This document shows positions 441 through 58,667 of a stretch of DNA of 64,000 bases, one piece after another. The DNA comes from Symbiodinium natans. Its lineage: Eukaryota; Sar; Dinophyceae; Suessiales; Symbiodiniaceae. A model generated the notes under the pieces. The model was not told the DNA's origin, did not search any database, and saw only the letters and a list, made by a program, of their open reading frames with translations. The DNA is taken from positions 62,001 through 126,000 of the forward strand of contig CAJNDS010000054.1 of the NCBI GenBank assembly GCA_905221605.1. The letters are read 5' to 3'. Within the stretch, counting starts at the first letter, position 1. Each line of letters begins with the position of its first letter. Position numbers and translations under genes: made by a program.

Positions 441-549
441 TCGATCTTGGCAGCTTGTACTAGGGAAGTGTGTGGGCCCACTGCAACACCCTGCAAGATT
501 GCATCTGTGAGGCCGAGCCCCAAAACCTGCACCTCGAACCCGAAGCGGC
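441..549 (+). CDS. Candidate internal exon, function unknown
   Basis: 109 bp, open from an acceptor ending CCCTTCAG to a donor GTTTAGGG. The reading starts SILAACTREVCGPTATPC. C-rich CCCTAAA-like repeats lie upstream and the G-rich array at 550-660 begins at the donor itself. No family recognised. Confidence 0.5.
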
Positions 550-662
550 GTTTAGGGTTTAGGGTTTAGGGTTTAGGGGTTAGGGTTAGGGGTTAGGGGT
601 TAGGGGTTAGGGGTTAGGGGTTAGGGGTTAGGGGTTAGGGGTTAGGGGTTAGGGGTTAGGGT
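550..662 (+). repeat. Telomere-variant array, TTTAGGG then TTAGGGG
   Basis: Starts as TTTAGGG and switches to a run of TTAGGGG-type units (GGGGTTA period 7). Homogenisation of a variant within one array points to local tandem expansion. Its first bases form the putative splice donor of the exon at 441-549. Confidence 0.95.
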
Positions 663-715
663 TTCCACGAGCCTGATCTGGTACCCGGAGCCCTGAACCT
701 CTCAACCTAGCCCAG

Positions 716-745
716 AAATCTACACCTCAAGCCCTGAACTGCGAG
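716..745 (+). CDS. Candidate short exon before an A-family element
   Basis: Ten codons (KSTPQALNCE) between CCCAG and GTAGCCCAG. The donor is the first base of an A-family hairpin element. Short, so weak alone; its value is the exact abutment with the element. Confidence 0.35.
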
Positions 746-848
746 GTAGCCCAGTAGTACCCTTTACACTTTTTTTGGTTCCGGGTTCCCTTATCAAGTA
801 ACCGACCCAAAAAAGGGTACCCTTATTATGAGATGGTTGCTGTGGAGC
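746..848 (+). mobile_element. A-family introner-like foldback element
   Basis: Begins GTAGCCCAGTAGTACCC and contains GGTTCC.GGGTTCCCTTAT.AAGTAACC and AAAGGGTACCC, then GATGGTTGCT. The same word order recurs at 6,109, 11,893, 12,877, 42,146, 55,329 and 55,557. The halves are partly complementary. Confidence 0.6.
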
Positions 849-1901
849 TTTGCTCTCTTCTTATGCGACACGTACTTCGCAGGTACTTCGTGCACCCTGA
901 GCCCTATATAATCCTGAAACCCTCAACCCCGCCAAACCTTCCTAAGCACTGTAAACCCTGTAAACACTGTAGGCCCTAAACCCTAAACCCCAAACCCTAG
1001 GTGCTGTGTGTGCCGGGCTCATCGATCGCGCCTCACGCCTGGCACGTGGCAAGGACGGGCAGCTCGGGTCCCTCCCAGCCGGGGGGTTTGGGGGGTGTAG
1101 GATTTAGGGTTTAGGGTGTTTTAGGGTTTAGGGCTTCGGGGCTTTGCCCCCTCTCTGGCTAACCCTTGAACCCTTAAGCCCTAAGCCCGAAACCCTAAAA
1201 TCTAAGCCCCAAATCCTAAAACCGAACAGTCGATCCTGCCCTCTGAAGATGTGCCATGGAGTGCTTCAGGGCCTTTTCAGTAGCCGACCGCGTTCCACAC
1301 GATCCTTGGGGGCTAAATGAACCCTGGAAGGGTTTATGGTTCCCAAGGACGGTCTTCTTTTCAGGGTTCCCTATGATCACAGACGTACCGAACAAAAGGG
1401 TCATAGGGTTTAGGGTTACAGGGTCATAGGGTCTAGTAGTTTAGGTGAATGGTTTAGGGTGATAGGGTTTAGCGTATAGGGTTATAGGGTCCAGTAATTC
1501 AGTGAATCTCCAACCATGTTTCCAGTCAAGTTGTCCTGCCCTTCGCGCAGCACAGGACACTCAACTTGCATTTGAGGCGGCGGAATTCAACGAGGCCTGA
1601 TTTCGGGGAGGGCTCGGGGAGCTCCTTAAAAGGGGGCGCCCGAGGGTCTGCAGGCTTGAGCTCCTGTACTTGTGCAGGTGGTGATGCAGCGCCTGGAGGC
1701 GGGTCTATGCGGCGTGTTGGGTCTTTGAAGGTGTCAGGCTCTTCGTTGTTTTGGGGTTCCTTCGCCGAATCGTCACTCCTCGATGATCGCCGCTCTTTCT
1801 TCTCCCTTCCCTCCCCTCCCTCCCTTCCCCCCTCCCCCCCTCCCCCCCTCCCCTGCAGATCCTGGAACCCTAATGCTCTCAAAAACCCTAAACCCTAAAC
1901 C

Positions 1902-1988
1902 CTGGCGAAGGAGAAGTTTTTCCTCTCGCCCAAGATCTTTGAGGCCATGGACCAAGACAACAGCAGCACACTCAGCAGACCTCTCTAG
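1902..1988 (+). CDS. EF-hand-like exon fragment
   Basis: The frame from 1902 reads LAKEKFFLSPKIFEAMD followed by DQDNSSTLS, then RPL and TAG at 1986. The segment F-x-x-MD-x-DNSSTLS matches the first half of an EF-hand Ca2+-binding loop (D, D, N/S at positions 1, 3, 5 and a hydrophobic residue at position 8). It lies between CCCTAAA repeats and a GGCAG|GTACGG donor-like site. Whether the TAG is a true end or intronic is unclear. Confidence 0.5.
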   Translation: MAKEKFFLSPKIFEAMDQDNSSTLSRPL

Positions 1989-2293
1989 ACCATGGCAGGT
2001 ACGGAAGGTGCTGACGTTTAGGTTCAGGGTTTGGGGTTTACTCTCTTGCCCTAATCCAAAACTTTACCCGAACTGCAGGGAACAAGCCCAAAATCCCTGA
2101 GGACGCTCAAATCTCAGATTTCGGAAGCCTCACACTTAAAATCGGCTTAAGAAGCTTGGGGGTTTCAGGTTCGGTGCGTTAAGTTGCGGAGTTTTGGGGC
2201 TTAGCCGGTCTTTGGGGTTTCCTAAAGAAGCTCAAGTTCTCCTTAGGTGCCTTGCATTCATCAGGGGCCACCGGCGTGCTCAGTGTAATATAG

Positions 2294-2407
2294 GGGTCGG
2301 AAAATTTACGAATATTATTTCCTTTTGGTCCCTGTATTATTATAATGACCCCCCCAAAACCCTGTTCGAATTATTAAGGCCCCTTTGTTATATGAAGAGC
2401 AGGGCAT
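2294..2407 (+). mobile_element. E-family dispersed element, copy 1
   Basis: GGGGTCGGAAAATTTACGAATA...CCCCCCAAAACCCTGTTCGAATTATT..GGCCCCT...AGGGCATA. It matches copy 2 at 10,767-10,885 word by word over about 115 bp, with substitutions but the same order of blocks. Confidence 0.6.
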
Positions 2408-2512
2408 AACACCATAAACTCTAAACCCTTAACCCTAAACCCTAAACCCTGAACTCTAAACCCGAAACCCTAAACCGTAAACCCTAAAACCTGAACCCTA
2501 AACCCTAACACA
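2408..2512 (+). repeat. C-rich telomere-like tract
   Basis: Degenerate CCCTAAA copies immediately upstream of the EF-hand-like exon at 2,521, forming the 3' end of the inferred intron. Confidence 0.85.
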
Positions 2513-2520
2513 ACCCCGGT

Positions 2521-2604
2521 ACCGAAATCGGAGACCCTCGAGACGAAAGTTTTCAAGGTGGCGAGCTGTCGATCTCAGAGTTCGTGGAGGCAGGCGGTTC
2601 CAAG
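2521..2604 (+). CDS. EF-hand-like exon (GELSISEFVEAGG)
   Basis: Open frame TEIGDPRDESFQGG followed by GELSISEFVEAGGSK. G-E-L-S-x-S-E-F-V-E is the second half of an EF-hand loop and the start of its exiting helix. The acidic ligands at positions 1 and 3 are poorly conserved. It ends at AAG|GATTTGGGGG, a possible GA donor, followed by TTTAGGG repeats. Together with 1,902-1,988 it suggests a Ca2+-binding domain encoded across neighbouring exons. Confidence 0.5.
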
Positions 2605-3045: not shown

Positions 3046-3296
3046 TGGAGGAACCAAGCCAGAAGAGTTGCTGTGACCTAAACCCAAGATCCCAAACCCT
3101 CAGCCCTGGCAAGGTCCGTTCCTGATTAGTAGCCGCTCTCTCGTGCGCAGGGGATGCGGAACATCGACATGTACAAGGACCGTGCTTGAAGGTCGCTGGT
3201 AGTGTTCGTTTGGGGTATGGCCGCCCTTGTTCTGTAAATGGGTTCACAATTGGGGTAGGTACATGTGATTTTTGGGTTTAGGGTTTAGGTTGGGAT

Positions 3297-3401
3297 GTTC
3301 TCCCTTATACTAGTAGTCCTTGATAGGGGTTATAGTAGGGCTTAGTAGGGGGTACTATAATCTTAGTCAAGGACTGTTAGGCCAAGGGGGAACATCCCAA
3401 G
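3297..3401 (+). mobile_element. C-family introner-like hairpin
   Basis: Terminal inverted repeats GTTCTCCCTTATACTA.AGTCCTTGA ... TCAAGGACTGTTAG...GGGGGAACATCCCAAG. It starts with GT and ends with AG. Other copies are at 4,869, 30,904, 34,657, 36,149 and 44,687. Confidence 0.7.
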
Positions 3402-5483: not shown

Positions 5484-5670
5484 CAACCCTAAACCCTAAA
5501 CCCTAAACCCTAAGCCCTAAACCCTAAACCCTAAACCCTAAACCCTAAACCCTAAACCCTAAACCCCAAACCCTAAACCCTAAACCCTAAACCCTAAACC
5601 CTAAACCCTAAACCCTAAACCGAAATTTAAACCCTAAACCCTAAACCCTAGACCCTAAACCCTACAACCT
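5484..5670 (+). repeat. Long C-rich telomere-like array
   Basis: More than 20 near-perfect CCCTAAA copies, immediately upstream of the exon at 5,688. Confidence 0.97.
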
Positions 5671-5687: not shown

Positions 5688-5757
5688 GCTTCGAATGATT
5701 GTTGCCGACTTGGCCCAGCGACTCTTTCAGGAGGCATGGTGCCTTCGCCTCTTCGTT
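5688..5757 (+). CDS. Candidate exon, LRMIVADLAQRLFQEAWC
   Basis: 70 bp between ACCCAG and GTTTAGGG. Reads LRMIVADLAQRLFQEAWC then LRLFV, an amphipathic helix. The telomere-like array 5,758-5,935 starts at the donor. Confidence 0.55.
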
Positions 5758-5935
5758 GTTTAGGGTTTAGGGGTTTAGGGGTTTAAGGGTTTAGGGGTTT
5801 AGGGGTTAGGGGGTTTAGGGGTTTAGGGGTTTAGGGGTTTAGGGGTTTAGGGGTTTAGGGGTTTAGGGGTTTAGGGGTTTAGGGGTTTAGGGGTTTAGGG
5901 GGTTTAGGGGTTTAGGGGTTTAGGGTTCAGGGTTT
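5758..5935 (+). repeat. TTTAGGGG variant array
   Basis: About 20 copies of an 8-bp variant TTTAGGGG rather than the 7-bp unit. The opposite strand of the same inferred gene region (5,484-5,670) carries the 7-bp unit, so the two arrays expanded independently. Confidence 0.95.
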
Positions 5936-5998
5936 AGTGTCATGGGGTCTTGGTTGAGACCCTCAGCCCTGAAGTTACTAGAAGCTGCTCTTGCGCAG

Positions 5999-6053: not shown

Positions 6054-6108
6054 GTTTAGGGTTTAGGGTTTAGGGTTTAGGGTTCAATCTTTAGCTGTTT
6101 TCGGCTTG

Positions 6109-6218
6109 GTAGCCCAGTGGTGCCCTTTACCCTTTTTTTGGTTCTGGGTTCCCGAATAAAAGTAACCAACCCCAACAGGGTACCCATATTATTATGAGAT
6201 GGTTACTGGGCGACCAAG
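6109..6218 (+). mobile_element. A-family introner-like element
   Basis: GTAGCCCAGTGGTGCCC ... AACAGGGTACCC...GATGGTTACTGGGCGACCAAG. Ends pair as an imperfect inverted repeat; starts GT and ends AG. Confidence 0.7.
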
Positions 6219-6820: not shown

Positions 6821-7148
6821 GCTGGGCCTTTCGGGGTTTTAAGTTTCCCCTGCGTTGTTGCGGTTTCATTACATCCCTTAGTAAAAGGCCCCCTTGCCCC
6901 CGTAACCCCCCAAAACCCCCACTTTGGCGTAGGGGTTTCGTTTAGCCCGGCCCCGCAGTTCGATGGCTTTGAGCGTTCTGTAGAAACCCTGATGCCCAGA
7001 ACCATGCGCTAAAAGCCCAAAACCCCGATTGTCCGTAGTGCCCTAATTTTTTGTTCAGCCCTGGAACCAGCAGCCCAACCTTATACCACAAAATCCCTTA
7101 ACTCTTAAGCCCTAAACTCTGAACCCTGAACCCTTAAACCCTAAACCC

Positions 7149-8138
7149 TAAACCCAATCGCCTGATGTGAACTGGCCCTCGACATCGGCGTCCGCGTCGA
7201 GCCGGGGGCCAAGATGGAGGGTCAGCGCAAGGGAAGTTAGGAATAGTAAGGTTTGCCACAGCCTTCGGGCTGTGCAGTGCGGTCAGCGTCTGCCGGCCTG
7301 ACTCCCAATGGAGTGGGGCACCGCCGGCCCATGTTATCAGAACCTGCGGCCCGAATGACGCATCGGCATACGCCTGCAAAGCTGAAGCAGTAACAGCCCT
7401 AGGGTACTGTTGCATGCTTCCACAGTCGTCAGCAGCAGGACCAAACAACAGGCATTGTTGCGGCGAAGCTCGAAGATGCTTCAACACACCTTTGCCTATC
7501 ACGACTGAGTCCCTGGGGCGTTTTGTGCTCCACTGGGACATGCGGTACACAGGGAAGCTCAACTCAGGACGAGCCCTCGCCGTGAGCCACAGAAGTTCGC
7601 GCAGCCCGAACATCATCAGGATTGACCGCATCATCCCTTGACTCACGATCGTCAAAGCGTTCTTTTCAGTTAGTGCATGGAGACCCGGACGTTCCAACAA
7701 CCTCAGTGTGACGAGCGAGCAACTCTCCAATGTACTTCGCTTGTCCGATTAGTCGGCCTTTCTCGCTTGAAGCGACTTCAAGTCCACAATATATTGCACT
7801 GTTTCGTTTTCGGAGTGCGTAAACTCAGAGCACTCCCAAGTGCTTTTGACAAAGCTCAGAAAGACCTCCCTTTTAGCCTTGGGTCCCACAACCAACAAGT
7901 CATCAACGTGCCAGCACACAACTGCAACAATCTCATGCCCGCCCTGGATGGTCCATATCTTTGATAGAGCAGCGACGCCCGAGTGGCTAAGGAACAAGGT
8001 GTGCCATGGTGACATCAAGCTCCTTGCTTGCGTATTTGAAGGGTGCGGAGTGGTACAAGGACTTACAGGGACGATGCAGAACATCTTCCTGCTGGAGTCT
8101 GGTGCTGCCAAGCTTGGCGTTCTAGGCCCCGAGAGCAT
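7149..8138 (-). pseudogene. Ty1/copia-type pol remnant (RT and RNase H)
   Basis: Minus strand. The upstream piece (8,138-7,749) contains VVCWHVDDLLVVGPKAKR, the reverse transcriptase active-site strand in the HVDD form of copia YVDD. The downstream piece (7,730-7,150, another frame) has LTARARPELSFPVYRMSQ, WSTKRP, then AYADASFGP and SGRQTLTALHSPKA, the copia thumb/connection and RNase H block with its catalytic-type D. The two pieces lie in different frames, the RNase H end is cut near 7,240 and no integrase, gag or LTRs are evident, so the element is dead. It is antisense to the surrounding exons and probably lies in an intron. Confidence 0.8.
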
Positions 8139-8648
8139 TCGTGTGGCTCTTGTGCATTGGAGCCTTTCTGGACTTCACATTGTCATTGGCAACCAGGCAT
8201 CGACCCAGGCATCTCGAGGGCACGCCGGCCAATGATGTTTCAGCTCTGGGAGCTCCGCTGCACGAAGTCCTCACGCTCTAGCCGCTTGGCACAGTGATGT
8301 GGTAAGTAGTTGGCTCCTTCAGTTTCACTGGTTCGGGCCTCATCAATAGCTGTAAAAAGTAGCATGCTGGGCTTGAGTTAGGAGTTCGACGCACCCGTCG
8401 GATTTACGATGATCTGGGGCTATCAATAGCAATAACGCTTTGCCTTGAGGGCTGCAGTTTTCGTAGATGATTAACTTCAGCCATGAGTCTTCGTTGACCT
8501 TCGTCAGGGTGTCCGAGGGGCCCCGTCGCAGCAGTGAAGAGGCACGCCCTGACCTTGGTTTCGCATCTTCTTACTTGAGCGGCCCCCCAAAACCCCTAAG
8601 CCGGAAACCCTGAAGCCCGACAAAACCCTAAAGCGCAAAATGCCCCAG

Positions 8649-8926: not shown

Positions 8927-8986
8927 GCTTAGTGCGTTTGTGTGTTGGTGTGTTTGTGTGTTCGTGTGTTTGTGCGTATGTGCATG

Positions 8987-9017
<31 letters not shown>

Positions 9018-9668
9018 CTGTGTCTGTGTGTCTGTGTCTGTGTGTCTGTGTGTCTGTGTGTCTGTGTGTGTGTGTCTGTGTGTGTGTGTGTGCGCGTGTG
9101 TGCGCGTGTGTGCGCGTGTGTGCGCGTGTGTGCGCGTGTGTGCGCGTGTGCGCGCGTGTGCACGCGTGTGCGCGCGTGCGCGCGCGTGCGCGCGCGCGTG
9201 CGCGCGCGTGCGCGCGCGTGCGCGCGTGTGCGCGCGTGTGCGCGCGCGTGCGCGCGTGTGGAGCCGCGCGTGTGAGCGCGTGTGCGTGTGCGCGTGTGAG
9301 GCGTGTGAGCGCGTGTGCGCTCGTGTGCGCGCGTGTGAGCGCGTGCGCGTGTGCGCGCGTGTGCGCGCGTGTGCGCGCGTGTGCGCTGGCGCGCGTGTGC
9401 GCGCGTGAGCGCGCGTGCGCGCGCGTGAGCGCGCGCGTGAGCGCGCGCGTGAGCGCGCGCGTGAGCGCGCGCGTGAGCGCGCGCGTGAGCGCGCGCGTGA
9501 GCGCGCGCGTGAGCGCGCGTGTGAGCGCGCGTGTGCGCGTGTGCGCGTGTGCGCGTGGGTGCGTGTGCGCGTGTGCGCGTGTGCGCGTGTGCGCGTGGGT
9601 GCGTGGGTGCGTGGGTGCGTGGGTGGGTGGGTGGGTGGGTGGGTGGGTGGGTGTGTGTGTGTGTGTGT

Positions 9669-9745
<77 letters not shown>

Positions 9746-17995: not shown

Positions 17996-18049
17996 GAAGC
18001 GCCCCTCAACTGGGTTCTCGGCGCGCCACGCGACAGCAAGCTGGTGCTG
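17996..18049 (+). CDS. Candidate exon, EAPLNWVLGAPRDSKLVL
   Basis: Acceptor TTGGCAG, 18 codons, donor CTG|GTTTAGGG; phase 0-0 follows in phase from 17,785-17,834. The left flank is a 100-bp CCCTAAA tract and the right flank a TTTAGGG tract: a model example of the architecture. Confidence 0.6.
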
Positions 18050-20418: not shown

Positions 20419-20452
20419 GTTTAGGGTTTAGGGTTGAAGGTGTTACTTGGAG

Positions 20453-20586: not shown

Positions 20587-20638
20587 TAGGGGTGCTTAGA
20601 ACAAGCAGGGCTTAGGGTGACGCCGAGGCCTTCTCCAG

Positions 20639-22375: not shown

Positions 22376-22450
22376 GCCCTGTGGGGGCGGCTACGCCGAT
22401 TCAGCGTGCGACGAGTCGCTTCTGGTGGGCTTCCCCTGGGCTTTTTGAGA
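22376..22450 (+). CDS. Candidate exon, ALWGRLRRFSVRRVASGG
   Basis: Acceptor CTCGGCCAG, exactly 25 codons, donor AGA|GTGTTTAGGG, phase 0-0. Basic reading ALWGRLRRFSVRRVASGG then LPLGFLR. Confidence 0.55.
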
Positions 22451-43945: not shown

Positions 43946-44005
43946 AAGCTGGGGATTGGTATGGTGTGCTTTCTCACGGCGGTCCGTGGCCCAGAGATGG
44001 TTGAG
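43946..44005 (+). CDS. Candidate exon, KLGIGMVCFLTAVRGPEM
   Basis: Acceptor GCGCGCAG, exactly 20 codons, donor GAG|GTTTAGGG, phase 0-0, followed by a TTTAGGG array. Confidence 0.65.
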
Positions 44006-46681: not shown

Positions 46682-46783
46682 AGAGCCAGTAGCCATGGTG
46701 AAGCCCAGCCACGAGCTGCTACAGGGCCTCCGTGAGTACATGGAAGAGGAGGCTACCACAATGCGGATACAACATCTTACAGG
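46682..46783 (+). CDS. Candidate exon, MVKPSHELLQGLREYMEE
   Basis: Acceptor CCCAACAG; reads EPVA, MVKPSHELLQGLREYMEE, EATTMRIQHLTG; donor possibly GA (GG|GATGATG). Helical, acidic. Confidence 0.6.
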
Positions 46784-47064
46784 GATGATGTTTCAGGGGT
46801 TTACTCCTCATCTTTTTATGGTGACCGTCATTTTTGCATGTTCATCGCGGTTCGGCTTATGGGTTCTTTTGATGGTTCGGCTTAGAAGGGTTTTTTCAAG
46901 GCTCGGCCGAAGGGTTTTTGACCTTGGCTTGAGGTTGCTCGGGGGGGGGGGGGTTGGCTGTTGCAGGTAGCCACGCGTTGTTACAAGGTGCAGGGTCCAG
47001 GGCAGAATGGCTCTGAATCCCATTAATAAGCCCTACACCTAAACCCGAGCTGAACCTAAGTCAG

Positions 47065-47142
47065 CGGAGAGAGGACTTCTTGCTGGAGATCTCTTGCTGG
47101 GCCTGGCAGTATTGCATAAAGCCGCTCGGGCAGCACTGCACA
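47065..47142 (+). CDS. Candidate exon, RREDFLLEISCWAWQYCI
   Basis: Acceptor CTAAGTCAG, exactly 26 codons, donor ACA|GTCCCC. Reads RREDFLLEISCWAWQYCI then KPLGQHCT. Confidence 0.6.
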
Positions 47143-47517
47143 GTCCCCAAACCTGCGGTTCAGGATTTAGGGTTTAGGGTTTAGGGTTGTAGGGCGTTAG
47201 GCTCTAGAGTAGAGGGTTCAGGGTTTTGGGTGTTTCCGAACACAAGGGGGCTTCTGTTTGGGGGTTTAGGGGTTATAGAATTTAGGGGTACGCTTTGTGG
47301 GGGGCCAAAACCCAAACTACGCCCTACACCCGACAAGGCCCCAGAGCCCCTGCAAGCGAGGCGGTAGGAAGTGCTTCGATCGCATGTTCCCTCCAGTTTA
47401 GGGTGCCAAATGTGAGTATATTCCTTTGTGGTGGGGGAACCCTAAACCCTAAACCCTAAACCCTAAACCCTAAGCCCTAAACCCTAAACCCTAAAAAAAA
47501 AGCCTACACCGCGACAG

Positions 47518-47553
47518 CGCATAGTGAAGGGGCCAACTCCGACCCCTGCAGAG
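47518..47553 (+). CDS. Candidate exon, RIVKGPTPTPAE
   Basis: Acceptor CGCGACAG, 12 codons, donor GAG|GTCCATTTTCG; phase 0-0. Confidence 0.5.
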
Positions 47554-47622
47554 GTCCATTTTCGCAAACGTCCGTATAGAAACATCCACAGGCTTAGGAA
47601 TCGGAGCCCTGTTAAAACCCCA

Positions 47623-47735
47623 AGACCCTAAGACCCTAAGACCCTAAGACCCTAAGACCCTAAGACCCTAAGACCCTAAGACCCTAAGACCCTAAGACCC
47701 TAAGACCCTAAGACCCTAAGACCCTAAACCCTATA
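47623..47735 (+). repeat. CCCTAAGA variant array
   Basis: Fourteen nearly identical 8-bp CCCTAAGA units; a different locally homogenised relative of the telomeric unit. Confidence 0.97.
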
Positions 47736-47770
47736 AGCCTTAAACCCGAAGTACCAAATCCGGCATTCAG

Positions 47771-47835
47771 CGGAGGTTCCCACATGAAGCGCCCAGCCAG
47801 TGGGAACACCCTCTGGAGTTCACGCCTCCTGGCTT
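47771..47835 (+). CDS. Candidate exon, RRFPHEAPSQWEHPLEFT
   Basis: Acceptor GGCATTCAG, 21 codons plus 2 nt, donor TT|GTTTAGGG. Reads RRFPHEAPSQWEHPLEFT then PPG. Confidence 0.6.
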
Positions 47836-47934
47836 GTTTAGGGGTCTGTTGGGGGGTTTGGGGGTTTAGGTTCAGGGTTAGGGTTTAGGGTTTAGGGTTT
47901 AGGGTTAGGGTTTAGGGTTTAGGGAAGCCCCCAG

Positions 47935-48047
47935 AAAGCAAGTGGGAAACCAACCGTTTCCGGTTCAAGGACACTGCATGGAGAGTACCGGGAGATCTTC
48001 GAGGGTCGCGCTGCCGAGTTCTGCGAGCAGGCCAAGACCAGATGCAG
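47935..48047 (+). CDS. Candidate exon, LHGEYREIFEGRAAEFCE
   Basis: Acceptor CCCCCAG, 37 codons plus 2 nt, donor AG|GTTTAC. Frame contains LHGEYREIFEGRAAEFCE then QAKTRC; another frame (KWETNRFRFKDTAW) is also open from a nearby AAAG. Confidence 0.55.
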
Positions 48048-48137
48048 GTTTACTTGAAGGTTCATGGGTAGGGTTTTGGGTTTTTGGGGTTTAGGGTTTA
48101 AGGTTTGGGGTTTAGGGTTTAGGGCTACTACTTGAAG

Positions 48138-48241
48138 GTTCATAGGTAGTTGTCAGTAGGGCTAGATTAGAGGTAATGTGCATTATAACCTTAGTTAAGG
48201 TACTGAAAAACCTTACTTGCAACTACCCAGGAACCTTCAAG
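48138..48241 (+). mobile_element. B-family introner-like hairpin
   Basis: GTTCATAGGTAGTTGTCAGTAGGG...CCTTACTTGCAACTACCCAGGAACCTTCAAG. A lone left end of a second copy lies at 48,050-48,068. Confidence 0.75.
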
Positions 48242-48838
48242 TAATGAACTTCAAGTAAGGCTTAAGGTGTTTTCTGAGTATGGGGCTGAGGGTTTAGGGT
48301 TCAGGGTTTCTGTTCTGTTTTGGTTTAGGGCTATATATTCGAGTACCATCGAGTAACCTGCCTGTGTGAGAATGGTTAGTGCACCCAATACTTAAAGCAC
48401 CCTGAACCTTTTGCGGTTAAACAATAGGTTACTGTAGGTCAATCTGATCCGCTGTGTGATGCAGATACCAAACCCTAAACCCTAAACCCTAACCCATCAT
48501 GGCACCTGGATTGGCCTAGACCGCTTTGGAGATCCCCAACTACCCCCCGCCCCCCCCGCTCCCCAAACCCTCACATCACATTCCTGAGCCCTGAGGCTCG
48601 CCACCAGAACCCTGCACCCCCAAACCCTTTAAGTCCTAAACCCTGAGCCCTAGCTCACTAAACCCTAAACACGCTAAACCCTGAATCCAAAAGATCTAAA
48701 CTTTTCAGCCCGAACCCTGCACACCTAAACCCCTTAACACGGCTGAAGGCCCTCTTGGATCTCCTAAACCCTAACCCCTAACCCCCAACCCCTAAACCCT
48801 AAACCCTAAACCCGAAACCCTAAACCCTAACCTGACAG

Positions 48839-48898
48839 GAAGGCCTTGATCTTCAAGAGTTGCTTGAGGGCGTGGCTGCAATTCGCATGCAGATGGGA
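48839..48898 (+). CDS. Gene A exon: EF-hand-like LDLQELLEGV
   Basis: Acceptor CCTGACAG, exactly 20 codons (EGLDLQELLEGVAAIRMQ then MG), donor GGA|GTTTTTTTT. L-D-L-Q-E-L-L-E-G matches the end of an EF-hand loop and exit helix. First of four exons that join in phase and end at a stop. Confidence 0.65.
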
Positions 48899-49048
48899 GT
48901 TTTTTTTGAGGGGAGGGCGGGGGGGTCTCGGGTTTAGGGTTTTGGGTTAGGGTTTTGGGTTTGGGGTTCAGGGTTTAGGGTTTAGGGTTTAGGGTTTAGC
49001 GTTTAGGGTTTAGGGTTCAGGGCTCAGGGTCAGGGTTCAGGGTTTAAG

Positions 49049-49078
49049 GTGCCCGACAAGCGCAGCGGGGCCAGCATG
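49049..49078 (+). CDS. Gene A exon with GC donor, VPDKRSGASM
   Basis: Acceptor GGTTTAAG, ten codons phase 0-0, donor ATG|GCATAG (GC). In phase with 48,839-48,898 and 49,227-49,243. Confidence 0.55.
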
Positions 49079-49226
49079 GCATAGGGCTTACGGCCATGAA
49101 GCAGGGTTTATATTTCTGTTCTTGGTGAGTGTATATAAGGTTCCTTTGCAATATTGGGGAGTGTATATACCTGGTGTTTTTTTTGGGGTACAAGAAATTT
49201 AGACCCTACTTCATGAATACCTAAAG

Positions 49227-49243
49227 CCTAACTATAATTGGAG
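49227..49243 (+). CDS. Gene A microexon, PNYNW
   Basis: Acceptor CCTAAAG, five codons plus AG, donor AG|GTTCATTG. The donor is the first base of a B element; AG plus the T after the element makes AGT (Ser). Confidence 0.55.
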
Positions 49244-49377
49244 GTTCATTGTACTTATTAACCAAGTACAACTGTACTTATGATTGTACTTATAACCATC
49301 TCAGGGCACCTACGGGGCTGATGAAGTGGGTTTTAAGTACAGTTAGAATTGGTTAGCAAGTACCACGAACCTCCAAG
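49244..49377 (+). mobile_element. B-family element acting as an exact intron
   Basis: GTTCATTGTACTTATTAACCAAG..CAACTGTACTT ... AAGTACAGTTAGAATTGGTTAGCAAGTACCACGAACCTCCAAG. Arms complementary for over 40 bp. Removal joins 49,243 to 49,378 in frame. Confidence 0.8.
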
Positions 49378-49510
49378 TAAACCCTATAGGGCGATCAAGC
49401 ACGTGGAGGAGGTTCTCTCGGAGCTGCGTGCTTTGGAGCGGGGGATTCAGGCCGAGGAGGAGGCTCGGCGCGAGAGGCCACGCCTAATACAGCAGCCCTG
49501 TAGCCAGTGA
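49378..49510 (+). CDS. Gene A last exon, helical C-terminus
   Basis: After the B element: KPYRAIKHVEEVLSELRA, LERGIQAEEEARRERPRL, IQQPCSQ, TGA at 49,508. Long charged amphipathic helix, coiled-coil-like. No internal ATG is needed because it is an internal/terminal exon. Best-supported 3' end of an upstream gene. Confidence 0.7.
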
Positions 49511-50118
49511 AGGCTCGGATGCTACGGAAGGGAATGCTGAAACCCTAGAACCCCTACCCTAGACCCTGATCCCTAACCCTACTCACGTCACCCTTATGGT
49601 TTTGTTTGTGAAGGTTTTCGGAGGCCACCTAAGTCTACCTGAGTATCCCTGTGCATCTGAGCTGAGGGGGGGGGGGTTCCGAAAACCAGGGTTCGTCCTA
49701 CCATGCTTGAGGATCTTAAGTTAAGGGGACCCTATAGTTCTTTGGTAGGGTTTAGGGTTAAGAGTTTGAGGTTAACAGGGAACATAGGTGTCTCTCGGTA
49801 GGCCCGACAGAAGGGTTTATTGCCCCAAAGCCTCCAACCCCAAAGTCCTCCTAGACCCCTGAACCCTTGCAACCCTAAACCCTAAACTCTACGCCCTAAC
49901 CCCAATAAGCCTTGAGCCCTAAATCCTGAAACCCTCAACCCTAAGTTTATATACCCTTTTCTTGAAATGAAGGAGCCCTACACCATAAATCTCTACATCC
50001 CAAACTGCCGGGTTTGTAGTTTAGGGTTTCAGGTAAGGGCCTTTAGGGCCCTTCGGGTCTTAGATTTCAGGCCTTTAGGGCCCTTTACAGCCCTTGGGGG
50101 CCCAAAGAAGTTGCCAAG

Positions 50119-50174
50119 GCCAGTCTCCGGGATGACCCAGGCTCAACGCGCGCCGGGGGCCTCAGTCAGCTGGG
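50119..50174 (+). CDS. Candidate exon, ASLRDDPGSTRAGGLSQL
   Basis: Acceptor AGTTGCCAAG, 18 codons plus 2 nt, donor GG|GTTAGGG. Lies between gene A and gene B. Confidence 0.4.
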
Positions 50175-50209
50175 GTTAGGGTTCAGGGCAGTTAGGGTTT
50201 AGGGTTTAC

Positions 50210-50325
50210 GTAGGCCCTTGGTGTTATATATATATATATATATCTATACCCCTATTGGGCTAAAGACTTCAGAAGAGGATCCTATCTAGGAATATATTCA
50301 AAGGGTTTGAGGAAGGGTCCCTATA
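50210..50325 (+). mobile_element. F-family introner-like element
   Basis: GTAGGCCCTTGGTGTTATATATATATA...CCTATTGGGCTAAAGACTTCAGAAGAGGATC..AGGAATATATTCAAAGGGTTTGAGGAAGGGTCCC. Right end less clear. Confidence 0.6.
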
Positions 50326-51252
50326 AACCTTATCAAAAAACTCTCAAACGCTAAACGCTAAGGGTTAAGGGAATATACTTTAACAATTATGGTCTATACC
50401 TTTTTTTGAGGGGTATATACCAGGATTACCCTGGGCACGGTTCCTTTCGCATGTGTTTTGGGCGTAGGGGGGCGGATGTGGGTTCAGTCTAGGGCGTAGG
50501 GTTTATAGGGTTTGGGCTTTAGGGTTAAGGGTTTTCAGTGTTTAGGATCGGGGCGAGGATAATGGAAGCCCTGACAACACAGCGCAGGGCCCTAAGTCCC
50601 TCAATTCGAAATTGAAACCCCACATAGTTCAAAAGGCTTAGCCCTTAGACCCCGCTGAACATCATAAACCCGAAGCCCTATAGGTATTCCACATGCAGCG
50701 GCTTAATCTTTATCCATCTGTACTTCTGAGATGAACTCACCCAAAAGCCAGTTCTGAATAACAAATAGGGCCCGACATTCGTCCGGCCCCAAAGAACCCT
50801 ACACCCTGACCCCGAAGCTCTCGATTTCACACCAGCATCGCACTCACTGAAAGAGGCCTTAATCGACTCGCTCACTGTTGCTTGGCAGAAATTCTGTTTT
50901 TGGGCAGCACCCTGGATTGCTTAGAGCTTGCACTTTAGCAGCCCGAAACCTACTTGTTGCGTAGCTCATGGCAACAGTTTGTTTTTTAGGAGTCTTAGGT
51001 ACAAGAGGGGTCTGGTCTAGGTCTTCGCACGCATTTAGCGTCGATTCTCGTAATTACAAGTCTATATGGACTTGGGTTTAGGGTTCACGGTTTAGGGTTT
51101 AGGGTTTAGTTTAGGGTTTCGGGTTTAGGGTTTGGCTATTGGTTTTGGTTTGCGGCTGGTCCCCTGCAAGTCATGTGGTTGAAGTGTTGGGAAGGGAAGT
51201 GTTAGATGCCTCGTTGCTTCATGGCGTAGAGCTTTATGGGGTGGGTTGGGGG

Positions 51253-51316
51253 AGTTTAGGGTTTAGGGTTTAGGGTTTAGGGTTTAGGGTTTAGGGTTTA
51301 GGGTTTAGGGTTTGGG
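51253..51316 (+). repeat. TTTAGGG array
   Basis: Nine copies. From 50,330 to 51,800 there are telomeric copies, an (A)n-rich block with C-run at 51,450-51,540 and weak ORFs only. Confidence 0.95.
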
Positions 51317-51814
51317 GTTTAGGGTTGGGGGAGTCTCGCAAGGCAAATGCAACGTCTTCCCCATAGGTATGGGATGGTGATCAGAGCTCATGCGGGCATT
51401 TGCCCAAAGTAGGGCACTACCAGCATGCTTATTGCGGGATTCCACCCACACCCCCCCCCCCCCTCCCCAAAAGAAAAAAAAGAAAAATAATATGTAAATA
51501 AGTAAAAAAGAAAAACAATGTATGTATGTATATATATATAAGATAGTTTTTGCCACACTTTGTGGGGCTGACAATGTGGTTTGAGCCCCTTCCGAAAAAG
51601 TGCAACCCACAATTTGGGAAACCCCGAATTCCGCAAATATCTCTGAAGCTCCAATATCCCTGACTGAAGGACCGTTCTTTATCTCCTATTCTGACCCTAA
51701 GACACTTTAAAGAATATTGATTCTGACCCTAAGACACTTTAAAGAATAACCCTAAACCTTAAACCGTAAACCCCAAGACACTTTAAAGAATATGTTCAAC
51801 TATGCGACTTGGAG

Positions 51815-51886
51815 ACCACAAAAGGCCTCCGAGGACTACTTGTCCTTCTGATCCTCGGCGGCAAGCTCCGGCACTCCCGGCCTAGG
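51815..51886 (+). CDS. Candidate exon, TTKGLRGLLVLLILGGKL
   Basis: After ACTTGGAG; reads TTKGLRGLLVLLILGGKL then RHSRPR, a hydrophobic stretch bounded by basic residues. An overlapping frame (NYATWRPQKASEDYLSF) is also open. Boundaries weak. Confidence 0.35.
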
Positions 51887-52602
51887 ATTTAGGGTTTCGG
51901 GTTTAGGGTAGGGTGAAGGGTTTCAGGGTGTAGGGTCTACGGATTTTGTATTTGTTTTTGACTCTCTCTCTCTCTCTCACTGAAGAGGGTTTAGGGTCAA
52001 GGGAATATCCTAACCCTCTAAACCCAAACAAACTTAAAGGCCTACAGTTATGCTCGATCCCCCTATGTACGTACCTGTGCGGGGGTAGGCCAGGTGCAGT
52101 TTCGGTCATACCCGGTTAGCTGGGGTGTAGGGTCTTGCTGTGTAGGGGTTTAGGTTTTGGGTCTAGGGCTTAGCTGGTCCAAAGTGTGCTTCTTCTAAAG
52201 GGGCTGGAGGTTGGGGAGTTCATCTTGAGCGTCTGATTTAGAGTTGACAGAACCCTGAACCCTACACGTCGAACGGGCTGCGTGAGTTGTTGGGTAGTAT
52301 GTTGCCTTTTTATAAGTACAGGGCTACTCCCGCAGGTCCCGCACATCGTGCGGAGTAAACCCTCAACCCCAAGCCCGAAACTCATGCAGAGAGCTGTTCT
52401 GGGTGCTAGGACTTCAGGACTTCAGGGTCATGCAAAAACCCAGGTGCAGGCACGAAGCGCCAGAGCCCAATCCCTGGGCCGTCAGCCCTGAACCCTGAAC
52501 CCTATGGCCCCGAATCCCTAAAGAGGGTTTAGGGTTTAGGGTGTAGGGTTTAGGGCTTCGGGTCCCAAACTCTTAGCCCAGAAGTAGGCGAGTGGGAGGC
52601 AG

Positions 52603-52660
52603 ATTCATGCAGCAAGTGCGGCAGCGGCGAGATTGGGCCGAAGGCTTGCGTGGAGGAAGG
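52603..52660 (+). CDS. Candidate exon, IHAASAAAARLGRRLAWR
   Basis: Acceptor GGGAGGCAG, 19 codons plus 1 nt, donor G|GTTTTATGG. Just upstream of the gene B start. Confidence 0.45.
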
Positions 52661-52832
52661 GTTTTATGGTTTCAGGCTTTTATAGGGCTTGGTCTCCTCA
52701 TGATTGTAGGGTTTAGGGTTTGGGGTTTATGGTTTAGGGTTTAGGGTTTACGGTTTAGGGCTCTAGTTGCTGCATGAGGATTCAGCCTTCATGCTTCAGC
52801 CCAAAGCCCCTGCAGCTTAGAGAGCTGTCACG

Positions 52833-52887
52833 ATGCCAGGCAGGGAGGTCGTACCCCTGCCAGACCTGGAGGACGTCCTGCTTGGAG
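52833..52887 (+). CDS. Gene B first coding exon
   Basis: ATG chosen because TAG at 52,818-52,820 is in frame upstream. Reads MPGREVVPLPDLEDVLLG plus G, donor G|GTGAGATT. The G joins AC of exon 2 to give Asp. The 5'UTR part may start at an acceptor CCCTGCAG at 52,815. Confidence 0.65.
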
Positions 52888-53170
52888 GTGAGATTCTGTT
52901 TGGGGGGAGGGTTTCAGGGTTTAAGGGTTTTAGGGTTTAGGGTGTAGGGTTTAGGGCCGGGATTCTGTTGGGGAAGGGATTAAGGGTTTGGGTTTTACGG
53001 TTTAATTCGGCCTGGAGGTGCGATTCGAGTTGGGGAGGTTGAACTTTGGATGCAGGGTCGGGATTTTGGTACCCTAAACCCTACAACGTAAAACCCCAAA
53101 ACCCTAAAACCCTAAAATCCCAAAATCCTAAAATCCTAAAACCCTAAAGCCCTAAACCCTATAGCGTCAG
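52888..53170 (+). other. Model intron: TTTAGGG at 5' side, CCCTAAA at 3' side
   Basis: Starts GTGAGATTCTG, has TTTAGGG-like copies at 52,915-52,955, then CCCTAAA-like copies at 53,080-53,160, and ends CGTCAG. The two sides are complementary. It is bracketed by two exons that join in phase, so it is the clearest example of the intron architecture. Confidence 0.65.
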
Positions 53171-53250
53171 ACGCCGGCAGCGAAGGCGGTGACGGCGCGT
53201 CCCCTCCCAGGGCTGTGCCCGTACGCGGCCTTCCGAAGGTCGTGGAGGAG
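53171..53250 (+). CDS. Gene B exon 2, AGSEGGDGASPPRAVPVR
   Basis: AC completes the codon from exon 1, then 26 codons: AGSEGGDGASPPRAVPVR, GLPKVVEE; donor GAG|GTGTGC. Confidence 0.65.
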
Positions 53251-53357
53251 GTGTGCAGAGACCCTTGAGTGGGGATAGGAAGTAGAGTGTTTAGGGTTTA
53301 GGGTTAAGGGTTTAGGGTTTGGGGTTTAGGGTTTGGGGTTTAGGGTTTAGGGTTTAG

Positions 53358-53449
53358 GTAGGCCCTTGGGGCATTTTTATTTCTTCCCTTGTTGGGTTTG
53401 AGGGGGTCATGTTCAGGAAGATTTTCAGGGCGTTGTAAGGGCCGCCTAG
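53358..53449 (+). mobile_element. F-family introner-like element
   Basis: GTAGGCCCTTGGGGCATTTTTATTTCTTCCC...AGATTTTCAGGGCGTTGTAAGGGCCGCCTAG. A 12-bp in-phase candidate microexon (LWLL) follows, ending at TTG|GTGAGTGT. Confidence 0.65.
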
Positions 53450-53670
53450 TTATGGTTGTTGGTGAGTGTATATTAGATTCCATTCGACTTCTTCGTATTG
53501 GAGTGTGTGTGTGTGTGTGTGCGCGCATGTGCGCATGTGTTCCTGATGCGTAGGGGTGTCCTTTGAAAAAGTACTAGCAATAAAAGCACAATTCATCTAG
53601 GGGTTTGTTTCAGAGTCCTTCAGAGTAAGGTTCCTTTCGTAACCGCCAGGGGTACCTAAATTAGATCCAG

Positions 53671-53721
53671 CCTCATATGAGGTTGGCTTTCCACCTTGCT
53701 TGGCTCCACTTCTCCCCCCAG
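53671..53721 (+). CDS. Gene B candidate exon, PHMRLAFHLAWLHFSPQ
   Basis: Acceptor TAGATCCAG, exactly 17 codons, donor CAG|GTATCA; phase 0-0, consistent with exon 2. Confidence 0.6.
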
Positions 53722-53786
53722 GTATCACTTTGCACCAAACGCGGCGAGGAATCAGCGTTTAGGGTTCAGAGTTTAGGGTTTGAGTT

Positions 53787-53840
53787 TAGGGTTAGGGATG
53801 ACGACCTCGGGGTTGGTGAAGTTGAACTTGCTGTGCAGGA
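53787..53840 (+). CDS. Gene B candidate segment, C2-like DDDLGVGEVELAV
   Basis: Open DDDLGVGEVELAVQDIVD. D-D-D-L-G-x-G-E-V-E-L matches a C2-domain loop plus strand, which in that family binds Ca2+ and phospholipid. The acceptor (GGGTTAG) and phase relative to its neighbours are uncertain. Confidence 0.35.
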
Positions 53841-53902
53841 CATCGTTGACCCAACTTAGCTGTACATATACGTATATATATATATATATAATACAATATT
53901 TG

Positions 53903-53933
<31 letters not shown>

Positions 53934-54005
53934 TATTTAACACAATACATAGATTCCCTTCAAAAAGAGTGGTATGTGTTCTATACCTTCAGTATTGGAA
54001 TTGAG

Positions 54006-54029
54006 ATTCTCCGCTCTGACTTCGTCAAG
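54006..54029 (+). CDS. Gene B candidate microexon, ILRSDFVK
   Basis: Acceptor GGAATTGAG, eight codons, donor AAG|GTACGG; phase 0-0. Confidence 0.45.
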
Positions 54030-54345
54030 GTACGGGGTTACTAGCATACCCTAGGTAGGCTCTGGGATGCTTATTCTAAGGGTTGTTCCATGGTCTGAGG
54101 GGTTTAGGGTTTAGGGTTTAGGGTTTAGGGTTTGGGGTTTAGGGTTTAGGGTTTAGGGTTTAGGGTTAGGGTTTAGGGCCCTTAGTATGGTCCCTTACCT
54201 CCTTTAAAGGGCTCCGAAGCATGGGCCCTTGGTTTGTTTTGGGAAAAACATCAAGGGTTCCCTTTTACGGGCCCATATAAAGAGACTATGCAACTACCCT
54301 TAGACCTATAACCCTAAACCCGAAACCCGAACCCCTATGATTCAG

Positions 54346-54385
54346 AAGTTTGGAGACCTGGGGAGGACGACCTGGAGAACATGGA
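54346..54385 (+). CDS. Gene B candidate exon, KFGDLGRTTWRTW
   Basis: Acceptor ATGATTCAG, 13 codons plus 1 nt, donor A|GTGAGC. Confidence 0.5.
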
Positions 54386-54772
54386 GTGAGCGATTCGGAC
54401 AAAAGAAGTGTGGCGGGGGTGAGGAGCACGCACGCAGAAGTCGAGCAAGTCACCTTTGGGCTTTGTAAAGCAGAGTAAAAAGCTCTACAACCCCAGAACC
54501 TAAAACACAAGAACCCCGCCCCCACCGCCCAAAAAACAAGTTGAACCCTCCGCACTGAAGCCCCTCAACCCCGCACCCCCAAACCCCCAAAACACCTAAA
54601 GCGGATAGCAGTTCGGCGACAGCATGCTGTCGAGAGTTGCCCTTTGAATTCGGCAATGCATAATGCATGACAGCGTGCACGTGTCCGAAAATGCGCCGGT
54701 TTAGGGTTTAGGGGTTTAGGGTTTAGGGTTTCGGGTTCTAGGTTTTGGGGTTTAGGGTTTAGAGGACTGAAG

Positions 54773-57016: not shown

Positions 57017-57110
57017 GTGCTTAGTAGGGAACGAGGGAATTAGGGCCCTATATATACCCTTTAAGGGATTCTATGTGGCCCTCATTCCCTCATTCCCTAC
57101 TAAGAACCAG
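57017..57110 (+). mobile_element. H-family hairpin with GT and AG ends
   Basis: GTGCTTAGTAGGGAACGAGGGAATTAGGGCC ... GGCCCTCATTCCCTCATTCCCTACTAAGAACCAG: 27-bp near-perfect arms, starts GT, ends CAG. Related halves at about 13,560 and 31,940. Confidence 0.7.
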
Positions 57111-57146
57111 CTAAACGTGTTTTGGAACATTGTACCAATCCTGCAG

Positions 57147-57204
57147 TGAAGGGCACTTCTATGAGGAGCAGAGAGAGACGGAGAGAGAGAGAGAGAGAGC
57201 AAGA
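57147..57204 (+). CDS. Gene B candidate exon, EGHFYEEQRETERERERA
   Basis: Acceptor AATCCTGCAG, one start-phase base and 19 codons ending in a GA repeat, donor AGA|GTAAAC. An alternative frame from the H element end reads LNVFWNIVPIL. Confidence 0.45.
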
Positions 57205-57418
57205 GTAAACCCACAACTAAAGCTGTGTCACTTGTAGGTAAAAGACTCAGTTTAGGGGTTCGGGGGGTTTGGTTAGGGGTTCATGGCTTTGAAAAACCCC
57301 CTCGTTTAGGGGTTTGGGTGGGTTAAGTATAGGGGTTCATAACTTAAAAAATTTACAGTAAACCCTCAACCCGAAACCCTAAACCTAGTTTAGGGACTCA
57401 GAGCTGTTTTTCTGGAAG

Positions 57419-57508
57419 GTGCCGCTGTCCACTTGCTCTTGCTCTGCCTCCCCTTCAAGGGGATCTCGCAGCACCCGGCGATGCGCCTTGGCGGCGAATG
57501 AACTTAGG
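57419..57508 (+). CDS. Gene B candidate exon, VPLSTCSCSASPSRGSRS
   Basis: Acceptor TTCTGGAAG, exactly 30 codons, donor AGG|GTTTAGGG. Confidence 0.45.
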
Positions 57509-57837
57509 GTTTAGGGTTTAGGGTTTAGGGTTTAAGGTTTCGGGTTTAGGGTTTAGGGTTTAGGGTTTAGGGTTCAGTGAATTGTGGAAGGTTTAGGGCG
57601 GTGCTTTCCTCACAAGAACTGAGTTTCAAGTGTTTTTGGTGTCCAGATCCAGGCCTCTGTTTAGTTTTCTTATATTGGGCGGGACGCTGCCGGTCATAGT
57701 TAGGTTGAACGGCTCATCTAAACCCTATACCCTTTAAACTCTTTCAACTTATGGGATCGCGTACTACCCCCCGGCCTCCACTCACCCGACAGTTTGCCTT
57801 ATTGACAGTATGCTTCTTCACCCAATGAACCAAGCAG

Positions 57838-57860
57838 ACGTTGAGGATTGACAGCCTGGG
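57838..57860 (+). CDS. Gene B candidate microexon, TLRIDSL
   Basis: Acceptor CCAAGCAG, seven codons plus 2 nt, donor GG|GTAAAT. Confidence 0.35.
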
Positions 57861-58148
57861 GTAAATACCTCAAGAGGCTTCTATGGTTGCGCCGCTTTTT
57901 GGTGAAACAGTGTCCGGAACCCTAAACCCTAAATATTCTGGTACCTAGGCGCAAGAGTTCAAACTTTTTTCGGAAGCCACGACTCGAAGCCCCACCGCGC
58001 CCTAAGCATGTGGGGATCACCGAATATCCACGATGACACCAAGCACTCAACCCTAGGAAGCACGAATATCAATTAGGGCGTTTTAGGGTTTAGGGTTGAG
58101 GGTTGAGGATTTAGGGTTTAGGGTTCAGGGGCGAGGGATGTCTGGCAG

Positions 58149-58281
58149 GATTCAGCTGCCGCAGACGCTGAAGGAGGACGAGCGTATTGACCTTGAGTGG
58201 CACCAGCTATCAAAGCATTCTCATTTGAGTCGTTTGGATTCGCCCTCCGTTTCTGTGTCATCCGAGATGCACGGATCCTGA
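58149..58281 (+). CDS. Gene B likely terminal exon
   Basis: After TCTGGCAG: IQLPQTLKEDERIDLEWH, QLSKHSHLSRLDSPSVSV, SSEMHGS, TGA. 43 codons of mixed, non-repetitive composition. If instead read from ATG at 58,138 it would give MSGR first. Confidence 0.6.
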
Positions 58282-58566
58282 TTGCCCTGAACTCAAGCCC
58301 CAAATCCCTGAAGCCCTAAACCCTAAACCCTACACCCTGAACCCTAAACCCTAAACCCCTAAACCCTAACCCCTAAACTTTCAAGATTTAGGGTGTAGAG
58401 CTTAGGGCTCAGGGCTTAACCATGAACCCAAAGCCCTTAAGCGCCCCAAACCCGCAACTCCAGTAGAAGAGGACCCCGAAAGGGCTAGGGCTTAGGGTTA
58501 AGGTTCAGGGTTCAGGGTTTAGGGATTAGGGTTTAGGGTTCTAATCCTAAACCCTAAAGCATCCAG

Positions 58567-58667
58567 TAGAAGAGGACGTGCGCGCCGAACCGATGGAGCA
58601 TGGGCCGCGGACGTCGTATCGCGCCGGACTCGGTGGAAGCCAGGATTCTGATATCTTTCTGATGAGG
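58567..58667 (+). CDS. Candidate exon, EEDVRAEPMEHGPRTSYR
   Basis: Acceptor AGCATCCAG, 2 nt plus 33 codons, donor AGG|GTTTAGGG. Reads EEDVRAEPMEHGPRTSYR, AGLGGSQDSDIFLMR. Last exon-like segment before the character of the DNA changes; it may belong to a third gene. Confidence 0.55.

Follow-up and report, generated by a model that had tools for sequence, protein, structure and literature searches.

In a dinoflagellate close to Symbiodinium, telomere-type repeats crowd the introns of many genes, and the way they face with respect to the introns is clearly non-random in a gene for a BART-domain protein and around dynein exons. In both, the G-rich orientation TTTAGGG is located just past the donor and, less strictly, the C-rich orientation CCCTAAA just ahead of the acceptor. 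The analysis started from a window, i.e. the whole stretch of 64,000 nucleotides (nt) studied here, which comprises bases 62,001-126,000 of contig C54 from an assembly of 759,417,921 bases in 2,543 contigs. A sequence-only reading of this window had proposed that exons sit where CCCTAAA copies (C arrays) end and TTTAGGG copies (G arrays) begin, and that the two ends of each intron pair and thereby draw the splice sites together. While the orientation was indeed non-random, with a G block coming first in all 11 BART introns and the dynein flanks in agreement, the cause appears to act on each array locally rather than through pairing of the two intron ends.

The BART-domain gene was recognized by homology. 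Exons guessed between 43.9 and 49.5 kilobases (kb) were first joined and matched BART-domain proteins (E=2e-25); tblastn with those proteins (P0001-P0005) then placed the exons listed in Table 1. The gene product matched PF11527 (ARL2_Bind_BART) with E=9.7e-11, and the joined protein was 86% identical to a protein of Symbiodinium microadriaticum over 100% of the query (E=9.5e-93). Identities to proteins of Effrenium, Durusdinium and Polarella amounted to 73%, 70% and 65%, with 97%, 97% and 77% covered, respectively. The coding sequence of only 534 nt is split over 12 exons of 21-86 nt, and the introns have lengths of 146-1,241 nt. Donors were GC (seven introns), GT (three) and GA (one), and the acceptor was AG in all 11 introns, followed by G in ten of them; as the borders were chosen by hand among options keeping frame and homology, some may slide by a few bases and these counts are partly a product of construction. 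Since every intron could be placed with a GT, GC or GA donor and an AG acceptor while frame and homology were kept, the introns fit the dinoflagellate spliceosomal type. GC and GA donors are reported to be frequent in Symbiodiniaceae (PMC11453091). For the intron previously given as 52,888-53,170 the start proved to be correct, while homology placed the end at 53,164. A gap between a C array and the following G array (C-to-G gap) within intron 5, at 49,942-50,019, contains an open frame and is perhaps a cryptic or alternative exon; it gave no Pfam match.

In all 11 BART introns the first telomere-type block past the donor was TTTAGGG (binomial p=0.001), and up to 150 nt from the donors 469 G-array bases but no C-array bases were counted. 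Seven introns showed the order G then C, two contained G blocks only and two the order GCGCG, so that both orientations occurred in nine of them. The 5′ side of the introns is stricter than the 3′ side. Up to 50 nt from the acceptors, 94 C-array bases stood against 19 G-array bases, and deeper in the introns both orientations occurred. Hence, the proposal that introns begin G-rich and end C-rich was borne out at the start of every BART intron but at the end of only seven. An exception had already been noted by the sequence-only reading, the intron near 16,920, to which the four BART introns ending in a G block have to be added. With the arrays masked, the G skew of the 5′ end still exceeded that of the 3′ end in nine of the 11 introns (p=0.007), degenerate units remaining unmasked in this comparison.

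Dynein heavy-chain genes of the same genome were used to study the polarity elsewhere. Exon-sized matches to three Pfam families were selected (26 of 37 for AAA_6, 14 of 29 for DHC_N2 and 7 of 17 for AAA_8, together 47) and their flanks were read in coding orientation. Long matches were left out, as were a match on contig C1768 that overran the sequence retrieved and several short matches on contigs C1768, C1831, C1572 and C2525; matches to Ion_trans were not used, the best ones being long, intron-poor frames. An array was located within 400 nt upstream of 24 and downstream of 26 dynein exons. At this distance the nearest block was C in 18 and G in 6 cases upstream, and G in 18 and C in 8 cases downstream (Fisher p=0.002); within 150 nt the respective numbers were 14 C and 5 G upstream and 15 G and 6 C downstream (p=0.010). 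Over the adjoining 100 nt, array bases numbered 610 C versus 150 G upstream and 577 G versus 77 C downstream, while past 150 nt downstream the bias reversed to more C than G. Pooling of dynein and BART exons resulted in 25 C and 10 G upstream and 29 G and 8 C downstream (p=4e-5). Sixteen of the 47 dynein exons were free of arrays within 400 nt, and within one family some dynein copies occupy very long open frames, the one on contig C2492 extending over 3,242 residues, indicating that arrays are not present in every gene. Dynein matches to three domains on contig C1812, which perhaps belong to one gene, span about 86 kb.

A strand-blind count of the gaps between neighbouring arrays gave a similar picture. 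In the window, C-to-G gaps cluster at the size of exons: 56 of 87 C-to-G gaps measured 60-180 nt, compared to 29 of 87 G-to-C gaps (Fisher p=7e-5), and in 18 other loci of 10 kb the numbers were 110 of 183 and 62 of 183 (p=7e-7). Three further loci of 8 kb revealed only a weak difference (20 of 34 versus 14 of 32). All these loci were picked by coordinate on long contigs and thus non-randomly, and one of the last three (L065) lies inside the dynein region of C1812. In the window and the 18 loci, C-to-G gaps of 60-200 nt had a GC content of 0.579 (n=167) compared to 0.524 for other gaps (n=303). When the labels were shuffled 5000 times, the C-to-G fraction was never reached, and the G-to-C fraction only once because neighbouring blocks share labels; as the shuffle is extreme for both directions, the comparison of one direction with the other is the actual test. 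Open frames did not help to identify exons, since C-to-G gaps had 2.29 open frames out of six compared to 2.21 expected from resampled sequence. Therefore, it is homology and not openness that proves exons, which in the window applies to the BART gene only. The five switches singled out by the sequence-only reading, i.e. the four putative exons in Table 1 and the intron at 52,888, were found as placed. However, the interpretation of array-flanked plus-strand segments as exons was corroborated by homology for the BART gene and not for the four other segments. Exons joined by hand across the region of 12-38 kb did not yield any homolog, one joined piece giving only chance PDB matches. Joined putative exons on the plus strand between 1,900 and 6,640 contain EF-hand-like pieces (EF-hand_1, E=3.9e-6) and perhaps belong to an ion-channel-like gene.

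The window is typical of the genome in its repeat load. TTTAGGG occurs 442 times and CCCTAAA 390 times, forming 197 and 175 tandem pairs (overlapping starts), and since the window begins 62 kb inside the contig, the tandem copies are chromosome-internal, as in interstitial telomeric repeats. Exact rotations of the 7-mer cover 15.6% of the window compared to 1.5% of one order-1 resampled control. Genome-wide, 1,185,204 and 1,184,385 starts of the 21-mer (TTTAGGG)3 were counted on the two strands (reversed control, 41 and 33), corresponding to 3.12 per kb, close to the 3.42 per kb of the window. Across 20 loci totalling 196 kb, exact telomere-type 7-mers cover on average 14.4% (range 0.4%-31%), yet these loci are richer than the genome, having 4.70 (TTTAGGG)3 per kb. 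By scaling their share with the (TTTAGGG)3 density, the telomere-type share of the genome was estimated at about 10-14%, which includes about 1.5% due to chance according to one resampled window. Two putative intergenic stretches served for comparison; the gene upstream of the first one, with its stop at about 38,134, was deduced from the reading frame alone.

Table 1. Coordinates of the BART-domain gene, other putative exons and putative intergenic stretches within the window
Feature	Position	Strand	Remarks
BART-domain gene (ARL2_Bind_BART, PF11527)	46695..54389	+	12 coding exons, 177-amino acid frame intact from start to stop
BART exon 1	46695..46751	+	homology, frame
BART intron 1	46752..47073	+	GC-AG; G then C blocks
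BART exon 2	47074..47120	+	homology, frame
BART intron 2	47121..47775	+	GC-AG; G then C; 12 copies of CCCTAAGA on C side
BART exon 3	47776..47823	+	homology, frame
BART intron 3	47824..47969	+	146 nt; GC-AG; G blocks only
BART exon 4	47970..48030	+	homology, frame
BART intron 4	48031..48838	+	GC-AG; G then C; folding z = -8.9
BART exon 5	48839..48877	+	homology, frame
BART intron 5	48878..50118	+	GC-AG; blocks GCGCG, G last
BART exon 6	50119..50151	+	homology, frame
BART intron 6	50152..50855	+	GC-AG; G then C
BART exon 7	50856..50876	+	21 nt; homology, frame
BART intron 7	50877..51824	+	GT-AG; G then C; 197 nt from donor to first G block
BART exon 8	51825..51849	+	homology, frame
BART intron 8	51850..52598	+	GA-AG; blocks GCGCG, G last
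BART exon 9	52599..52643	+	homology, frame
BART intron 9	52644..52839	+	196 nt; GC-AG; G blocks only
BART exon 10	52840..52887	+	homology, frame
BART intron 10	52888..53164	+	GT-AG; G then C
BART exon 11	53165..53250	+	homology, frame
BART intron 11	53251..54365	+	GT-AG; G then C
BART exon 12	54366..54389	+	includes stop codon; homology, frame
Putative exon	5688..5757	+	flanked by a C array (5485-5669) and a G array (5758-5937)
Putative exon	17996..18049	+	AG ahead, G array after; joined queries without homolog
Putative exon	22376..22450	+	joined query without homolog
Putative exon	43946..44005	+	outside the BART match
Putative intergenic stretch past inferred stop codon	38135..40430	.	repeat coverage 0.65%, chance level
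Stretch beyond last array-flanked segment	58700..64000	.	repeat coverage 1.5%, chance level

To explain the polarity by pairing of the intron ends, inverted arrays would have to loop the intron out and bring its splice sites together, which we consider distinctly unlikely. The presence of both orientations in nine BART introns, with G first and C last in seven, agrees with this idea, but two introns lack any CCCTAAA block and four end in TTTAGGG. A comparison of folding energies with 10-20 dinucleotide shuffles, carried out for the eight BART introns of up to 820 nt (three longer ones were skipped), gave a divided result: five introns folded better than their shuffles (z -2.8 to -8.9), whereas the other three did not (z -0.3 to 0.7). 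Folded alone, introns 2, 4 and 10 formed end-to-end pairs (103/197, 76/254 and 52/94, respectively), intron 11 did not (0/390). By contrast, the minimum-energy fold of the BART pre-mRNA at span 1000 preferred the C array on the far side of the preceding exon. Out of 909 G-array bases, 174 paired with the preceding intron's C array, leaving the exon in the loop, compared to 81 pairing with the C array of their own intron; 84 paired with other C arrays, and the remaining 570 were either unpaired or had partners outside the C arrays. At span 300, the numbers were 159 for the preceding intron, 87 for the own intron and 0 for other C arrays. Furthermore, array lengths across putative introns were uncorrelated (rho 0.00, n=92; rho 0.21, p=0.09 for the 67 spans below 1.5 kb). 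Fifteen arrays of variant units were picked by hand from a tandem-repeat list and by reading of the window. None of them had a complementary tandem pair within 3 kb, single complementary units being present near ten, and for the CCCTAAGA array of BART intron 2 the complementary unit was absent over the same distance. Such unmirrored variant units speak against stems kept by selection as well as against terminal repeats inherited together. The latter would be expected if each insertion event added first a G and then a C array, either as an element of the introner kind whose terminal repeats are telomere-type or by fusion of two telomere-capped break ends, the exons being the uninterrupted remainder. 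This kind of polar insertion is rather unlikely, but somewhat less so than pairing of the intron ends. It would account for the order G then C in seven BART introns and for 12 exons in such a short coding sequence, and telomere fusions read from G to C. In the 18 loci, G-to-C was also the commonest class of neighbouring arrays at distances of 180-400 nt (33 of 88). Dinoflagellate introners with inverted repeats are known (PMC7789003). On the other hand, G-to-C junctions were not specially close (below 30 nt in 46 of 183 cases compared to 36 of 183 for C-to-G), and neighbours of the 18 loci at 60-180 nt other than C-to-G were roughly evenly distributed (62 G-to-C, 64 GG, 48 CC). The mirrored variant arrays that an insertion should leave were missing in all 15 cases, and repeats were at chance level in both putative intergenic stretches.

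The preference of the fold for the partner across the exon raises the possibility that the two arrays flanking an exon, C ahead of it and G behind it, pair with each other, which may present or hide the exon, favour its skipping or the formation of circular RNA, or couple the growth of both arrays via a DNA hairpin. The distance to be spanned is short (median gap 106 nt in 105 exon proxies) and the partner across the exon would be the first one transcribed. Array lengths correlated across exon proxies (rho 0.47, n=166; reached in 0 of 2000 within-locus permutations), across GC-rich proxies (rho 0.38, n=105) and in a further 24 kb (rho 0.50, n=20, p=0.02), in general not across G-to-C neighbours. 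This correlation lost strength when the filter on array length was tightened (rho 0.19, p=0.12 at 28 nt; rho 0.27, p=0.046 at 35 nt), and G-to-C neighbours at 60-180 nt also exhibited one in 1 of 12 settings (rho 0.30, p=0.02). Above all, it failed in exons confirmed by homology, namely in 14 dynein exons (rho 0.07), which were chosen by us as those of array-rich genes among the 47, and in the BART gene (rho 0.24, n=10). Proxies may mix true exons with chance gaps, and due to the missing correlation in confirmed exons no conclusion was drawn from the proxies. Inverted repeats flanking exons usually favour skipping or circularisation, which would be costly if many exons were affected. Looping of the exon is very unlikely to be the reason for the polarity.

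We favour, with moderate confidence, the explanation that telomere-type repeats invaded introns in many genes, where splicing fixes the strand adjoining the exons, array by array. Each array would expand locally and independently of the others; the lack of complementary tandem pairs for all 15 variant-unit arrays is as expected if arrays expand singly. CCCTAAA, which is free of G, offers neither a donor nor an AG and may supply a branch-like CTAAA and a run of C and T suiting the region upstream of an acceptor. TTTAGGG contains the acceptor-like TTTAG/G, which might be risky upstream of an exon, while its G-runs near the often non-GT donors of the BART gene could serve as intronic enhancers. 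In human introns, G-rich and C-rich intronic motifs have been described as splicing enhancers compensating weak signals (PMC2481429).

Several observations weigh against a constraint of splicing on the strand of the arrays. Taken alone, the orientation of the last block ahead of the BART acceptors (7 C, 4 G) is not significant (p=0.55), and the four introns ending in G have TTTAGGG blocks as close as 38-79 nt upstream of the acceptor. The nearest block of dynein exons was G upstream in 6 of 24 and C downstream in 8 of 26 cases, and only two of these exceptional matches have stop codons. In addition, the 16 array-free dynein exons did not show a significant skew of the G-after/C-before kind (p=0.25), nor did the flanks of the other 31 after masking of the arrays (p=0.35). 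Thus, a general splicing grammar of this kind is not visible outside the arrays, and mere tolerance, with arrays in the wrong orientation being removed, may suffice as an explanation. It is conceivable, and proposed here only tentatively, that the telomere repeat goes beyond this and acts as an exon-marking code, CCCTAAA before and TTTAGGG after the exon being read as splicing signals that compensate weak GC and GA donors, possibly via telomere-repeat-binding proteins. If so, a tenth or more of the genome would be splicing signal made of telomere sequence.

Whether tolerated or useful, a strand order tied to exons in a simple repeat that accounts for about 14% of the sampled 196 kb represents a natural experiment on the reading of weak splice sites and on the tolerance or usefulness of repeats. 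A constraint of splicing on each array predicts the G orientation up to 150 nt from the donors of mapped introns and altered splicing upon flipping of an array. The C-to-G switch could also aid gene prediction in dinoflagellates by flagging very short exons like those of the BART gene.

Other elements were observed in the window. The regions of 59,940-60,944 and 63,448-64,000 contain a satellite with units of approximately 54, 109 and 163 nt and the motif TGACACATATTCCGCGG, inverted on either side of a 2.5-kb insert. An AT-rich segment at 62,010-62,850, atypical for the window, harbours an open frame of 81 residues (62,354-62,596) without a Pfam match. On the minus strand, two open frames at 7,137-8,174 include the residues WHVDDLLVVG, which resemble a motif of copia-type reverse transcriptases; Pfam gave no match. 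Short dispersed elements resembling miniature inverted-repeat transposable elements belong to three families (745-842, 6,108-6,208 and 11,889-11,994; 20,443-20,588, 37,190-37,278 and 49,235-49,377; 3,290-3,401 and 30,897-30,998) and occur in array-rich regions, two families matching on both strands like palindromes. A GT- and GC-rich microsatellite block of 1.2 kb is located at 8,932-10,164. No match was obtained in the window with Rfam at gathering thresholds or with a spliced-leader pattern allowing up to 3 mismatches, and whole-frame Pfam scans, covering three frames over the initial 15 kb and one frame over the following 15 kb, were empty.

Several dinoflagellates have TTTAGGG as their telomere repeat (PMC11453091), and the excerpt of this review on dinoflagellate genomes does not mention telomere-type arrays ordered around exons. 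The string "telomer" is absent from a paper comparing Symbiodiniaceae. Literature searches on telomere-type repeats in dinoflagellate or algal introns, covering titles and abstract openings of the matches listed and excluding subscription papers and supplements, revealed no report of such arrays. With interstitial telomeric repeats the arrays share the occurrence of (TTTAGGG)n off the chromosome ends, but they make up 14.4% of the 196 kb in 20 loci, are ordered around exons and, in both putative intergenic stretches examined, are no more frequent than by chance. The human enhancers resemble them in that intronic GGG and CCC motifs promote the splicing of weakly marked introns. They are, however, short motifs that are enriched ahead of weak pyrimidine tracts and can in part replace one another, and they are described without telomere-type arrays or a strict order of G after the donor (PMC2481429).

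In nonconventional introns of euglenids, RNA structure joins the intron ends, but conserved borders are missing there, while all BART introns could be placed, partly by construction, with an AG acceptor and a GC, GT or GA donor (PMC4770533, PMC6221363). The introners of Amoebophrya, a parasite of the dinoflagellate lineage, carry inverted repeats near both intron ends which can form hairpins, and possess unusual splice sites; their inverted repeats of 8-20 nt in repeated introns differ from the tandem telomere-type units found here (PMC7789003). Terminal arrays were inverted in seven of 11 BART introns, variant units being mirrored in none of 15 cases. No sign that the BART introns derive from a single repeated element was obtained within the window: its self-comparison after masking of exact arrays returned 78 pairs, of which 57 fell in the satellite region at 59-64 kb, and no match between two BART introns. 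Short direct repeats at the intron borders carry no information here in view of the AG/G acceptors.

The closest known case are the AC/GT introns of fish. Their repeats are located at opposite intron ends. The complementary simple repeats of these introns are reported to form a stable intron-spanning structure that enforces splice-site choice (PMC7404189). Thus, to state that complementary repeats at opposite intron ends have not been described in any genome would be too strong, although the repeat is a different one (PMC7404189). Here, the unit is a telomere-type sequence of 7 nt in dinoflagellate introns with many GC and GA donors, and the fold of the BART gene, as far as one gene can tell, did not mainly close the introns. 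Pairing is not the favoured reading of the telomere-type arrays, and pairing across the exon competes with that of the intron ends.

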